Assembly: GCA_937142855.1 (NCBI GenBank)
Contig: CAKZQZ010000001.1
Coordinates: 1 to 48,948, forward strand
DNA length: 48,948 bases
Direction: 5' to 3'
Source: an uncultured Alphaproteobacteria bacterium
GTDB taxonomy: Bacteria; Pseudomonadota; Alphaproteobacteria; Puniceispirillales; Marisalimonadaceae
Part shown: piece after piece, positions 2,100-48,379 of the stretch
How positions within the stretch are numbered: position 1 is the first letter of the stretch
How the letters are laid out: every line of letters starts with the position of its first letter
Notes under the pieces: model-generated
What the model saw: the letters and a program-made list of their open reading frames with translations, nothing else
What the model was told of the DNA's origin: nothing
The model's database searches: none
Position numbers and translations under genes: made by a program

Positions 2100-4514
2100 C
2101 TATTTTTTTACAACAACTTTTATGTTGTGATCTTGCACCTCAATAAATAAACTATTGCCATCTTGTGCTTCATTATTAATGATTAGCTCACTTATTTTAT
2201 CTTCAATAGCACTTCTGATTTTTCTTTTAATTGGCCTAGCTCCATATTCTGGACTGTAACCAGTCAAAACAATATTTGAACAAACTTCAGAATTCCAATC
2301 AATTTTTATATTCTTTTGTAAAAGCCTATGCTTGAGATCTAATAGCTGTATCTCAACAATTTTAGAAATATGAGATTTGCCCAATTTTGAAAAAAAGAGA
2401 ATTTCATCTAATCTATTTATAAACTCAGGGCTTAATTTAGATTTAACTGAATTCATAATATTTTTCTTTGTTAGGTTGTTTTTTTCATTATCCTTGCTGA
2501 AATCTATTTCAGTATTGAAATGTTCAGCACCAATATTACTAGTTAGAATTATGATTGTATTTGTAAAGTCAACAATTTTACCATGACTATCCGTTAGCCT
2601 ACCATCATCCATAACTTGAAGAAGGATGTTTAAAACATCTATATGAGCTTTTTCTATTTCATCAAAAAGTATAACTCTATATGGCCTTCTTCTAACTGCC
2701 TCTGTTAAAGTACCACCCTCTTCGTGACCCACATAACCTGGAGGAGCACCAATCAATCTGGATATTGAATGTTTTTCCATATATTCAGACATGTCTATTC
2801 TAATAATTGCATTTCGGTCATTAAAAAGGAATTGAGCTAAGGTTTTAGCTGTTTCAGTTTTTCCAACGCCTGTTGATCCTAAGAAAAGAAAGGACCCTAT
2901 TGGACTCGATGAATCATTCAAACCAGCTCTTGATCTTATAATTGTTTTAGAAATTGCGCTAATCACATTATCTTGACCAACTATCATTTTTTTTAATTCA
3001 GATTCAATTTTTAATAACTTTGAACGCTCAGCTTCAAGCATTTTTTCCACAGGGATGCCTGTCCACTTAGATACTACCAAAGCAACGTCTTCTTCATTAA
3101 CTATAGTATTAAGTGAGTCACCGCTGTTTGAGTATTTTTTTATATCATCCTCTAAATTAGGGATTATTTGATAAGAAAGCTCTCCTGCTCTATCCCAATT
3201 TCCATCTCTTTTTGCTTTATCTAATTCATTCCTAGAGTTTTCAAGCTCAATTTTTTTAAGTTGTTCCTCTTCTATAAGTTTTTTGCCAGAATTCCATTTT
3301 ATAGTTTCATTTTTTGATAAAAGTTGTAATTTTTCTAATTCTTCTTCAACTTTCGAAAGCCTGGCTTCTGAAGATTTGTCAATCTCTCGTATTAAGACTT
3401 TCTTTTCTATTTGTAATTGAATTATTCTCCTATCAATTTCATCTAACTCATCTGGTTTAGAGTCAATTTCAATTCTTTTGCGACTCGCCGCCTCATCTAT
3501 TAAGTCAATTGCTTTATCCGGTAAATATCTATCGTTTATGTACCTGGAAGATAAGTTTACAGAAGCCAACAAAGCTTTATCGCTAATAGCGATGCCATGA
3601 AAAAGTTCATATTTTTCTTTAATACCGCGCATCATAGATATAGAATTTTCAATATCAGGTTCATTAACATAAACTTGCTGAAAGCGTCTTTCTAGAGCTT
3701 TATCTTTTTCAATATACTTTTTATATTCATCTAATGTGGTAGCGCCGATACAGTGTAACTCACCACGGGCTAGAGCAGGCTTAAATATATTAGAAGCATC
3801 TAATGAGCCATCCCCGCCACCAGCTCCAACTAGAGAATGAATTTCATCTATAAAAAGAATTATATTTTCTTGTTCTTTTTCAATTTCATTTAGTAATGAC
3901 TTTAATCTTTCTTCAAAATCACCTCTAAATTTTGCTCCCGCCAAAATACTAGCCAGATCTAGAGAGAAGATTTGTTTTGACTTTAATTTTTCTGGAACAT
4001 CTTTATTTGCTATTCTTATGGCTAAGCCTTCAGCAATAGCCGTTTTGCCAACTCCTGGCTCCCCAATTAAAATTGGATTATTTTTTGTTCTTCTAGATAA
4101 AACTTGTATAACTCTTCTTATTTCCTCGTCTCTACCAATAACAGGGTCTAATAAACCTTTTGTTGCTTTTTCAGTTAAGTTTGCGGCAAACCTATTAAGT
4201 GTATCGAAACTCGATTCTGCCATCTTATTCATAGCTTTTTTATCTTTCCTAAATTGTCTAATTTGATCATGTAAATTAATAAAATTAATATTATTTTTAT
4301 TTAAAATATATCTTGTTTGGTCATTTAACTTTGTAAATGATAGTAATAAAATTTCTTGGGTTATATATTTATCACCAAAATCAACCATTAATATATTAGC
4401 CATACGAAGCAAATCAATTACGCTTTTATCAATTTTTTCTTGGGCTTTTTTATTAGTTATATATGGATAAATACTTTCTTTTAGATAATTAATGTCTACA
4501 TTTAAATTTTTCAA
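2100..4514 (-). CDS. clpB: ATP-dependent chaperone ClpB (frame open from an internal TTG)
   Basis: Hsp100 disaggregase that extracts proteins from aggregates together with DnaK. The 804 residues hold two AAA+ modules: Walker A GEPGVGKT (151-158) and GSTGVGKT (near 550). Between them lies the long charged coiled-coil M domain (about 350-470), which separates ClpB from ClpA. ClpB usually has about 857 residues. The missing 50-odd N-terminal residues are encoded directly upstream in the same frame (4515-4669), but no start codon serves them unless one base is restored; see the separate entry. The TTG at 4514 is only the first start-type codon in the open frame and has no obvious ribosome site. 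It lies below DUF4167, a common alphaproteobacterial order. Confidence 0.93.
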
Positions 4515-4672
4515 CAGATCAATAATGTATTTTTCTTGATCAATTAAAATTATGTAAAGTAAATGGCACGAGGCTAGGCTAGAATTATTTTTAAGGGCAA
4601 GATCAAGCCCGGAATTGAAAATATTTTTGGATCTATCTGATAGTTTTTTGAGTAAATCTTCTATTTTTCCAT
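4515..4672 (-). pseudogene. clpB: clpB 5' end, separated from its ATG by a one-base frameshift
   Basis: In the clpB frame, upstream of TTG 4514, the minus strand reads KIEDLLKKLSDRSKN, then about 40 residues resembling the ClpB N-domain (including SCHLLYIILIDQEKY). An in-frame TAA lies just before, with no ATG, GTG or TTG after it until 4514. The natural ATG (4670-4672) is one base out of phase. It is followed by G and a run of five A (plus-strand T at 4664-4668) and then hits TAG. A sixth A would give MEKIEDLLKKL joined to the rest, 857 residues in all, the usual ClpB length. Sequencing error, recent mutation or slippage on the A run are possible. Confidence 0.75.
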
Positions 4673-4760
4673 ACCATTTTATTTAACCTGATATGTATAT
4701 AGTAAGTATATGATTAATATCAATATTGGCTTTTAGAGTATATTAGGGTAAAATAATCTT

Positions 4761-45280: not shown

Positions 45281-46207
45281 ATGAAAGTACTCATTGTAGC
45301 AGAGCATAATAATAATGAATTATTACCAGCAACTTTACATACAGTAAACGCGGCAAATCAGATTGGTTCTTCTGATTTAATAGTGATTGGAAGTGACTGT
45401 CAGAATGTTATTAAATCATCAACAAAAATCAAAGGTATTAGTAAAGTTTTATCTTGTGATAATGAAATCTACAAAAACCCACTAGCTGAGAATATATCAA
45501 CTTTAATTAAGTCTATTGCAGAAGACTATTCTCATATTTTATTTTCAAATACAGCTAATGGTAAAAATATTGCTCCTAGGCTTGCGGCACTTCTCGATGT
45601 AATGATTATTCCTGATATAATTGAGATTATTGATGACGAGACATTTAAAAGACCTATCTATGCTGGTAACGCCATTGCCACTGTTCAATCGTCTGATGCC
45701 ACTAAGGTTATCACCGTTCGTGGTACAGCCTTTGATAAAGCAGAAGCCACTGGCGGCAGTGCAGAAGTAAGCGATGTTGCTGCGGGTGATAATTCTGGCA
45801 AGTCTGAATTTGTGAAAGCAGAACTTAGCAAGTCTGATCGTCCTGAGCTAACCAGCGCCAACATCATCATTTCTGGTGGTCGTGGTATGGGTAACGGCGA
45901 AAACTTCGCACTGGTTGATGCTGTAGCTGATAAATTGGGTGCCGCCGTTGGTGCTTCACGTGCCGCTGTTGATGCGGGCTTTGTACCGAACGATTATCAA
46001 GTTGGTCAAACTGGTAAAATCGTTGCACCTGAACTTTATATCGCGGTTGGCATTTCTGGTGCCATTCAACACTTGGCTGGTATGAAAGACAGTAAGATCA
46101 TTGTTGCCATCAACAAAGACGAAGAGGCCCCAATTTTCCAAGTGGCTGATTACGGCTTGGTGGCTGACTTGTTTGAAGCATTACCTGCTCTTGAAAAAGC
46201 CCTTTAA
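45281..46207 (+). CDS. etfA: Electron transfer flavoprotein subunit alpha (hybrid composition)
   Basis: Partner of EtfB that binds FAD. The 308-residue frame is unbroken and has the FAD-domain signatures [50 protein letters not shown]. The first 126 codons are AT-rich (AGA for Arg, TTA for Leu), the last 182 GC-richer (CGT, CTG, GCC). The switch lies in the conserved [14 protein letters not shown] stretch near 45,660. The protein could function, but the gene looks like two related etfA genes joined in frame. Confidence 0.93.
45640..45680. other. Composition junction inside etfA
   Basis: GC by hand count: 23% in 45241-45300, 38% in 45541-45600, 27% in 45601-45660, then 50% in 45661-45720 and 52% in 45721-45780, staying near 50% to the window end (52% in 46861-46920). 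Codon choice changes at the same point. No repeat, tRNA or insertion end is seen here. Either an assembly join or a recombination crossover fits. Confidence 0.85.
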
Positions 46208-46218
46208 GGAGCGCTTTG

Positions 46219-47094
46219 ATGGATTTTAAAACAATCGGCGTCATTGGCGCAGGGCAAATGGGCAATGGCATTGCCCATGTTGCCGCCCTATCGGGTTATG
46301 ACGTGGTGATGTCAGATGTTTCTTCTGAACAAGCCGAAAAAGGTCTGGCGGTTATCACCAAAAACATGGCCCGCCAGGTAAGCAAAGAGATTATCTCTCA
46401 AGCTGACATGGACACGGCAATCGCCCGTATTAAAGCCAGCGGTGATGTTGCTGACCATGCCATCTGTGATTTGGTCATCGAAGCGGCAACTGAAAACGTT
46501 GCTTTGAAAGAAAAGATATTTGCTGGTTTGGTGCCTCATCTAAAAGATGACGCGCTTATTGCAACCAACACATCGTCTATTTCGATCACCAAATTAGCAT
46601 CAACCACTGATCGCCCTGAGCGTTTCATGGGCATGCATTTCATGAACCCTGTGCCCTTGATGAAATTGGTTGAGTTAATCCGCGGTATCGCCACCAGCGA
46701 TGAAACCTTTGAAGCCATTCACGCTTTAACCCTTAAAATGGGTAAAGTGCCAGCGGTTTCGGAAGATTTCCCTGGCTTTATCGCCAACCGCATTTTAATG
46801 CCAATGATCAATGAAGCCATATATACCCTTTATGAAGGTGTTGGCACCATTGAAGCCATTGACACCACCATGAAACTTGGCATGAACCACCCTATGGGTC
46901 CGCTTACACTGGCTGACTTTATTGGCTTGGACACCTGCCTTGCCATCATGCAAGTTCTTTACGAAGGGTTGGCCGATAGTAAATACCGACCTTGTCCTTT
47001 GCTGGTTAAATATGTAGAAGCCGGATGGCTTGGACGAAAAACCGGAAAAGGCTTTTATGATTATTCGGGTGACACTCCGGTTCCAACGCGTTAA
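46219..47094 (+). CDS. 3-hydroxybutyryl-CoA dehydrogenase
   Basis: NAD(P)-dependent enzyme of the PaaH/HbdA group interconverting acetoacetyl-CoA and 3-hydroxybutyryl-CoA. 291 residues from ATG 46219 (GGAG at 46208-46211). Rossmann motif GAGQMG (10-15), catalytic His 140 in [11 protein letters not shown], the [17 protein letters not shown] segment, and the C-terminal dimer domain ending GKGFYDYSG. Follows etfA in many Alphaproteobacteria, so its position is expected, but its codon use belongs to the GC-richer right part. Ends before a strong terminator. Confidence 0.95.
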
Positions 47095-47100
47095 ATTACT

Positions 47101-47126
47101 AACCCCGCTGCGGCGGGGTTTTTTAA
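47101..47126 (+). terminator. Intrinsic terminator after the etf-hbd operon
   Basis: Perfect 8-bp GC-rich stem AACCCCGC / GCGGGGTT (47101-47108, 47113-47120), loop TGCG, followed by TTTTTT. It closes the etfBA-dehydrogenase transcript. The GC-rich style contrasts with the weaker AT-rich groEL terminator on the other side of the junction. Confidence 0.92.
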
Positions 47127-47154
47127 TGCCTTATAAAGTGGGGAGGCTTTTAAA

Positions 47155-47838
47155 ATGGCAGATATGAAAATTGTGATGGTCAATAAAAACTATTCCAGCT
47201 GGTCGCTACGGGGATGGTTGGGTGTAAAACAAACAGGCGCTGAGTTTGAAGAAATTATCTTTGACTTATGGACCGATGAATTTAACGACAAGATCAAGCG
47301 TTATAGCCCCACAGGCTGTGTCCCTGTGTTGGTGGATAAAGATATTTATGTTTGGGAAAGCATCGCCATTTTAGATTATTTGGATCGCAAATTTCCCGAC
47401 TGCGGCATCTGGCCCAAAGAAAGCCACCTGTACGCCCATGCTAAGGCCATTTCTGCTGAAATGCATGCCGGCTTTTTCGCGTTGAGAGGGGCCGCACCAA
47501 TGAACCTGCGTGAGAACCGCCCCTATATGGACATGGATGAAAAGGTTAAAAAAGACGTTGCAAGAATTGAGGAAATTTGGACATCATGTCTTGAAAGTCT
47601 GGGGAATGTCGGACCTTTCCTGTTTGGTAAATTTAGCGGTGCCGATATGATGTATGCCCCTGTGGTCGCCCGCTTAAATGGTTATGGTATCAAACTGAAT
47701 GACACCTGTATGGCTTATATGGATGCGGTGCTTAATCACCCCCATATGAAAGAATGGTATGAAGCCGCGGCTAAAGAAACCTTTACCATCCCAGAAGATG
47801 AAATTCCTGCCACCCAGATGGTGTTAATTGCGCCTTAA
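47155..47838 (+). CDS. Glutathione S-transferase family protein
   Basis: Two-domain GST of 227 residues: N-terminal thioredoxin-like domain (about 1-85, with NKNYSSWSLRGWL holding the probable catalytic Ser, SPTGCVPVLVD with the cis-Pro, and the glutathione-binding ESIAILDYL), and an all-helical C-terminal domain. The substrate is unknown. A GGAGG ribosome site lies about nine bases before ATG 47155. It is a separate transcription unit after the terminator and GC-rich like the rest of the right part. Confidence 0.9.
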   Translation: MADMKIVMVNKNYSSWSLRGWLGVKQTGAEFEEIIFDLWTDEFNDKIKRYSPTGCVPVLVDKDIYVWESIAILDYLDRKFPDCGIWPKESHLYAHAKAISAEMHAGFFALRGAAPMNLRENRPYMDMDEKVKKDVARIEEIWTSCLESLGNVGPFLFGKFSGADMMYAPVVARLNGYGIKLNDTCMAYMDAVLNHPHMKEWYEAAAKETFTIPEDEIPATQMVLIAP

Positions 47839-47869
47839 CACCGCCGCCATAATAGTCGAGGCACCGACA

Positions 47870-48379
47870 ATGATAAAAGTCCTTAGTCATATTATCATAG
47901 CATTACTATTGATGGTGCCCACTACAAATGCAGAGGAGAGCAACATGTCTAAAGCCACGGGAACCTTTGAAATAAGCATGATACCGCAGGATGATGGTGC
48001 CGCCAATATGGGGCGTTTTCAGTTTGAAAAAGCATTTGCAGGCGACATCACAGGCACAAGCATCGGCCAAATGTTAAGCCACCGATCCAGCGTTGAAGGG
48101 TCAGCGGGGTATGTTGCAATGGAAAAACTTACCATCACGGTTGATGGAAAGACTGGCAGCTTTCATGCCCAACACACAGGCACTATGCAAGCGGGCGACC
48201 AATCAGCCAGCATCAGCATTGTGCCTGATAGTGGCACCGACCAATTAACAGGTATATCAGGCAGCATGGTAATAGAAGTGGTCGATGGGCAGCATTTTTA
48301 TACACTGACCCTGAGCTATTCGGTTCGTCCGTATACACCAGCAGCGGCGTTGAATTTAGTGCAACCAATGGTGTATTAA
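47870..48379 (+). CDS. Exported DUF3224 family protein (out-of-frame tail?)
   Basis: From ATG 47870 it has 169 residues: signal peptide (about 1-21, cut near TNA-EE) and a DUF3224 beta-barrel domain (about 27-150) with ATGTFEISMIP, GRFQFEKAFAGDITGTS, GSFHAQHTGTM and DGQHFYTLTLSY. DUF3224 proteins normally stop near that last motif. Here about 18 more codons follow, in DNA where another frame (48301 onward) also reads well, so the true end may be lost at a frameshift or join. Function unknown. Start at TTG 47828 was rejected. Confidence 0.75.
   Translation: MIKVLSHIIIALLLMVPTTNAEESNMSKATGTFEISMIPQDDGAANMGRFQFEKAFAGDITGTSIGQMLSHRSSVEGSAGYVAMEKLTITVDGKTGSFHAQHTGTMQAGDQSASISIVPDSGTDQLTGISGSMVIEVVDGQHFYTLTLSYSVRPYTPAAALNLVQPMVY

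Follow-up and report, generated by a model that had tools for sequence, protein, structure and literature searches.

A conserved AUA/AUU codon as the candidate start of full-length ClpB in an alphaproteobacterial genus

Where is translation of clpB initiated when its reading frame extends well upstream of any standard start codon? This question is raised by the window, the whole 48,948-nt stretch of DNA analysed here (contig C1 of a 2.32-Mb genome in 122 contigs). The gene is encoded on the minus strand and ends with a stop at 2100; the ORF listing gives TTG 4514 as its first codon. The frame stays open 5' of this TTG as far as a TAA at 4685-4683, and no ATG, GTG or TTG was found in the clpB frame between the two. 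The initial annotation recognized this open stretch and ascribed its lack of a start to one base missing from a run of five A (4668-4664) that separates clpB from an ATG at 4672; another out-of-frame ATG is found at 4677. Both the open frame and the position of ATG 4672, one base out of phase across the five A, were confirmed in the window. The reading that fits best is one absent from that annotation, namely initiation at an AUA or AUU codon, and it is there that full-length ClpB most likely starts. In the window this codon is the ATA at 4664, from which the clpB frame runs 50 codons down to TTG 4514 and six further codons up to the stop TAA:

4683..4685, minus strand: in-frame stop TAA, the upstream bound of the clpB frame
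4670..4672, minus strand: out-of-frame ATG of the initial annotation, opening a three-codon ORF (ATG GAA AAA TAG) whose stop ends at +4 of the clpB frame
4662..4664, minus strand: ATA, proposed start codon of full-length ClpB (854 codons), based on the aligned ATA/ATT of the genus and on codon-like conservation from here on

The 5' end of clpB in the genus and in control genes

The same-genus search covered 40 genomes, and the clpB 5' end was present in 29. In G020, G021 and G027 the match starts inside the gene, for which a contig end accounts in the first two; G010, G013, G017, G019, G029, G031 and G037 gave weaker matches only, which were taken for ClpA, and G033 gave no match. The completeness of these last eight genomes is listed as 52-90%, and clpB may be absent from their assemblies. 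The codon aligned to window 4664-4662 is ATA in 27 of the 29 genomes and ATT in two (G011 and G015). From the upstream in-frame stop to this codon, a distance of 1-18 open codons, no ATG, GTG or TTG occurs in 27 of the 29, and in these the first standard clpB start comes 15-147 codons downstream. The exceptions are G011, with an ATG 11 codons 5' in an AT-rich repeat, and G024, with a TTG four codons 5' and a broken N-domain. Since same-genus relatives show it too, the missing standard start is not a matter of chance. The clpB 5' end is in this respect of the infC type, with no ATG, GTG or TTG and with a conserved AUA/AUU at the expected first codon.

The sister genera g2, g3 and g4 start clpB with ATG (eight, two and one loci, respectively), and of 13 loci from the order's other families, 12 show an ATG, GTG or TTG close to the 5' end of clpB, the remaining one (G062) being full of N. 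In this sample, therefore, the AUA start of clpB would be a feature of the genus of the window, g1.

The neighbours of clpB in the window, which we take to include an M23 peptidase, a DUF4167-like gene, prmC, prfA, hisS and ispG, have orthologues on the same 14-20-kb stretches of the relatives. A standard start was found within 12 codons of the expected place in 133/133 neighbour orthologues and in 0/15 clpB genes on the stretches of 15 genus genomes. This control comprised ten gene families and one secA copy. It excluded hits below 40% identity or starting past residue 40, as well as frames truncated where a stretch ended; of the 32 window genes used as queries, 20 gave no counted hit in those stretches. 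The test was lenient, a chance ATG, GTG or TTG within 12 codons being counted as a start. Among ClpB loci of other organisms, 79 of 80 carry a standard start no more than 25 codons from where it is expected; these loci have a best segment at most 54% identical, include none of the genus and may omit near records. In the one locus without such a start (L094) the alignment begins only at residue 121.

As side observations, all three genomes that gave a 16S match (L211 in G001, L212 in G007 and L213 in G009) have their 16S rRNA gene some 1.8 kb past the clpB 3' end, and the G+C content of the window rises to 46% at 46001-48000, near the contig end, from 27-36% in the earlier 2-kb steps, which may mean that this part was acquired recently or that the end of the contig is chimeric.

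The N-domain and the internal ATG

Downstream of the proposed start, the gene falls into a diverged N-domain and a core, separated by an internal ATG:

4233..4664, minus strand: ClpB N-domain, codons 1-144, diverged; Clp_N in 27/27 genus members scanned
4239..4250, minus strand: Shine-Dalgarno-like purine stretch AGGAAAGATAAA before the internal ATG, from anti-Shine-Dalgarno (anti-SD) duplex energy
4230..4232, minus strand: conserved internal ATG (codon 145), proposed start of an N-domain-lacking ClpB, from conservation in the genus and sister genera
2100..4229, minus strand: ClpB core with two AAA+ modules and D2-small (Pfam AAA, AAA_lid_9, AAA_2 and ClpB_D2-small above cut-offs)

According to Pfam, the window protein has the two AAA+ modules, AAA lid and D2-small that define ClpB/Hsp104. 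The N-domain-like text noted by the initial annotation was also borne out, as the N-terminal 190 codons of the window matched Clp_N with 25.0 bits (cut-off 20.7), the whole window protein scoring 19.9 bits, just under that cut-off. Clp_N, the domain expected at this end of a ClpB/Hsp104, was recognized in the N-terminal segments of 27/27 genomes at E up to 1, with a best value of 1.9e-09.

Window codon 145, which falls in column 148 of the alignment, is an ATG in all 27 genomes with an intact N-domain and in both broken ones (29/29), as well as in 11/11 loci of the sister genera g2-g4. As read from the printed sequences, the order's other families have no ATG at this site in their 13 loci, one of which (G064) has GTG, as E. 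coli does. An anti-SD energy of -4 or lower over the 15 bases before the internal ATG was found in 76% of the 29 genomes; among the 297 other Met codons and the 19,213 codon positions of the core, the shares that reach it are 2% and 15%, respectively. In g2-g4 the energies at this ATG range from -3.9 to -8.0. The Arg at alignment codon 142 is AGG in 20/27 genomes, while AGG makes up 22% of AGG plus AGA in the core (kinship ignored). As in the ClpBs with two isoforms, a putative internal start with a ribosome-binding-like stretch is found near codon 149. The initial annotation had raised the possibility that an N-domain-lacking ClpB is made from an internal start; this idea is supported for a second product, its candidate start being the conserved ATG 4232 and not TTG 4514.

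The N-domain is broken in two of the 29 genomes, G004 (L032/L038) and G024 (L037), each of which has an open frame from the internal ATG onwards. A TGA overlapping the internal ATG closes the N-domain frame of G004, whose core then runs on for 709 open codons. The N-domain of G024 is interrupted by a deletion and by stops, while its internal ATG region is retained, with an open frame after it over the stretch read. Among 27 genomes the mean N-to-core divergence ratio is highest for the N-domain of G004 (3.4, the next being 3.2), so that its break appears genuine and relaxed and not a product of misassembly, although this falls short of proof. The two natural breakages suggest that the short ClpB is the form that cannot be lost.

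Might the N-domain text then be an untranslated relic, with the internal ATG alone making ClpB, without an N-domain? The conservation of this ATG and of its Shine-Dalgarno-like stretch, the broken N-domains of G004 and G024 and an N-domain divergence averaging 2.2-3.4 times that of the core would all fit. A relic is nevertheless rather improbable, as the N-domain is free of stops and frameshifts in 27 genomes, is recognized as Clp_N in every one of them and, from codon 2 on, accumulates its mismatches at third positions.

The codon at which coding begins

This pattern was quantified as the pairwise mismatch per codon position among 27 genomes, G004 and G024 being excluded for their broken N-domains. 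Upstream of the ATA the mismatch has no codon pattern (0.21-0.68 in codons -8 to -2; 0.36/0.42/0.15 in codon -1); it is 0/0/0.14 in the ATA codon itself and concentrated at third positions in codons 2-15 (0.19/0.11/0.43). In a profile of the 27 N-terminal segments, positions 8-190 align to residues 6-192 of structurally solved ClpB chains, which places the ATA about two codons ahead of the usual ClpB residue 1.

Some other non-standard codon near the ATA might initiate in its place, since 1-18 codons are open between the stop and the ATA and codon 4 is TTA in 27/27 genomes; this is improbable, because the upstream codons are unconserved and codons 2 and 3 already vary in a coding style (GAT/GAC and AAT/AAC). 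Constancy of the third base was rejected as proof of the ATA: the 25 of 27 genomes with ATA look striking next to the 247 ATA among 566 Ile codons of the same region, but on the tree (26 genomes) this base takes two steps, which is unexceptional in that two or fewer are also seen in 15 of 44 conserved internal Ile columns. A reassignment of AUA to Met was likewise rejected, as ATA, ATT and ATC interchange at conserved Ile columns, implying that AUA is still read as Ile in elongation.

One explanation offered by the initial annotation, that a homopolymer error or a recent null mutation removed a base from the A run and that ATG 4672 is the true start, draws on the window, this one genome, in which the ATG lies one base out of phase over five A. 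Relatives 36-71% identical in the clpB 5' region keep the frame without an in-frame ATG at that place (28/28 genomes with the 5' end), and an ATG at -8, the place of ATG 4672, occurs in none of the 28. Among the 29 genomes the length of this A run, up to the ATA, ranges from one to six, with five A in six of them including the window and two in the nearest relative, G028. As neither the A run nor the preceding ATG is common among relatives, no extra base is needed, and with the frame 5' of TTG 4514 conserved codon by codon a lost base is very unlikely. Ribosomal or transcriptional slippage linking an out-of-frame ATG (4672 or 4677 in the window) to the clpB frame, also considered in that annotation, is just as far-fetched, because upstream ATGs differ in place and frame between relatives, G005 has no ATG, GTG or TTG in any frame within 60 bases upstream, the length of the A run is not conserved, and neither a conserved ATG nor a slippery site was seen in the relatives.

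To place clpB among other genes, about 450 kb from five relatives and the window were scanned for starts; 157 ORFs of G014 and the window were queried, and the 126 with at least two homologues were tested. Nineteen were flagged: two clpB, eight lying under a longer opposite-strand ORF and nine others. The codon pattern was checked in 18 of the 19 (all except the window clpB), and seven of the nine others, with short leads or no codon pattern, were taken as ordinary. Among the 126 ORF groups, clpB was the sole clear case of constraint starting well 5' of any standard start, two being ambiguous. One flagged ORF with two homologues, which we take to encode an EamA-like transporter, has no standard start near its conserved 5' end in L216:7091-7999 (G014) and L228:4611-5489 (G023), and an ATG is present in its G012 homologue (L221:14695-15603); it is possibly another non-canonical start. 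In a 295-codon ORF on the minus strand of L215 (G014), the 15 codons before the ATG are codon-like (0.07/0.17/0.42; four homologues).

Two further stretches lie upstream of the clpB ATA:

4669..4675, minus strand: G-rich stretch GGTATGG, weakly Shine-Dalgarno-like by anti-SD duplex energy; AGGT in many relatives
4718..4723, minus strand: TTGATA at the place of the relatives' TTGAAA promoter-like box, from the alignment with relatives

The anti-SD energy over bases -18 to -4 before the ATA is -2.8 in the window and -3.3 on average over the 29 genomes. The mean before 19 window genes is weaker (-0.9), and 25% of core codon positions match the pre-ATA median, which is not above background. The anti-SD was seen in two 16S genes of the genus, the window's own genome giving no 16S match. 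TTGAAA is found upstream in 26 of the 29 genomes, 25 times at -51 to -64 and once at -85, the window being among the three without it. The box was considered as a possible heat-shock promoter; judged by eye against consensus sequences, its spacing fits neither sigma-32 nor sigma-70 cleanly, and no promoter was assigned.

The gene infC is the textbook case of a non-AUG start. In this genus it starts with ATA in 27/27 loci (L149-L175; 27 of 40 genomes gave a match), and GGAGAT precedes the ATA in the 26 loci not cut by an end, as opposed to the ATT start of E. coli; an in-frame TTG lies ten codons 5' of the ATA in four of the 27. The use of ATA by infC in the same genus implies that AUA initiation is probably available there. 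The anti-SD energy before infC of the window's genome is -8.0, far stronger than before the clpB ATA, so that clpB, with a mean of -3.3, lacks the strong or extended Shine-Dalgarno motif of infC-type starts, a feature reported for the S. aureus sites.

A dual-start model and its relation to known systems

We propose that clpB of this genus has two starts, a weak AUA/AUU for the long form and a standard AUG at codon 145 for a form lacking the N-domain, a model to which we assign a probability of about 0.78 from comparative sequence data. The AUA (AUU in two species) at window 4664-4662 would be read by the initiator fMet-tRNA to yield full-length ClpB, which would be made sparingly because IF3 discriminates against such codons, and the AUG at window 4232, preceded by its purine-rich Shine-Dalgarno-like stretch, would direct synthesis of the short form. 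Against this model, the Shine-Dalgarno stretch before the ATA is weak, whereas the AUA/AUU starts of S. aureus are reported to have extended motifs (PMC13009471). The N-domain is fast-evolving and broken in 2/29 genomes, and on the tree the start codon is no more constant at its third base than conserved internal Ile codons are. Upstream in-frame starts also exist, an ATG in G011, a TTG in G024 and a TTG in 4/27 infC loci.

A further step, which we regard as doubtful, is that the ratio of long to short ClpB reads out IF3 activity, forming an isoform switch gated by initiation fidelity in the disaggregase of what are probably ocean bacteria. As infC itself starts with AUA in the genus, full-length ClpB and IF3 would then rise and fall together.

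The model, if true, would put a widely conserved chaperone among the few genes with an AUA/AUU start and would tie start-codon choice to the ratio of ClpB isoforms, for which the reason that the internal start is kept has been called unclear (PMC6168691). Gene finders restricted to ATG, GTG and TTG would annotate ClpB throughout the genus without all or part of its N-domain.

A close precedent for the proposed start is infC, which starts with ATT in E. coli and AUA in S. aureus and for which repression by IF3 has been reported (PMC5472188, PMC13009471). As in this IF3 autocontrol, the codon would be AUU or AUA, and infC of the genus also uses ATA; unlike infC, which regulates the factor it encodes and is preceded by a strong Shine-Dalgarno (-8.0 in the window's genome), clpB is the gene of a disaggregase and has a weak one. 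Outside infC, the S. aureus genes ccpN (AUA), cvfC1 (AUU) and citZ (AUA) gave reporter yields of about 10-30% of AUG, and two of them were called conserved (PMC13009471). They resemble the clpB case in their AUA/AUU starts, and differ from it in being other genes of another phylum, with extended Shine-Dalgarno motifs reported for infC, cvfC1 and ccpN. Streptomyces sigR is also a stress-response gene with a non-canonical start, reportedly repressed by IF3 (PMC5472188), though its start is GTC and its product a sigma factor. No clpB with a non-canonical or ATA/ATT start is described in the titles and abstracts among the literature matches listed.

The proposed short form has its counterpart in E. 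coli and M. tuberculosis, where a ClpB lacking the N-domain is made from codon 149 (PMC6168691), and the two E. coli isoforms cooperate (PMC6941012). In these species and in Leptospira an internal start near codon 149 (GTG; ATG in Leptospira) gives the form without the N-domain (PMC6168691, PMC6941012), much as the internal ATG would do here. The difference is that here the odd codon would fall on the long form and the standard ATG on the short one, and the passages cited from those reports mention no non-AUG start for the long form. The clpB of this genus would then combine an infC-type start with a dual-isoform ClpB.
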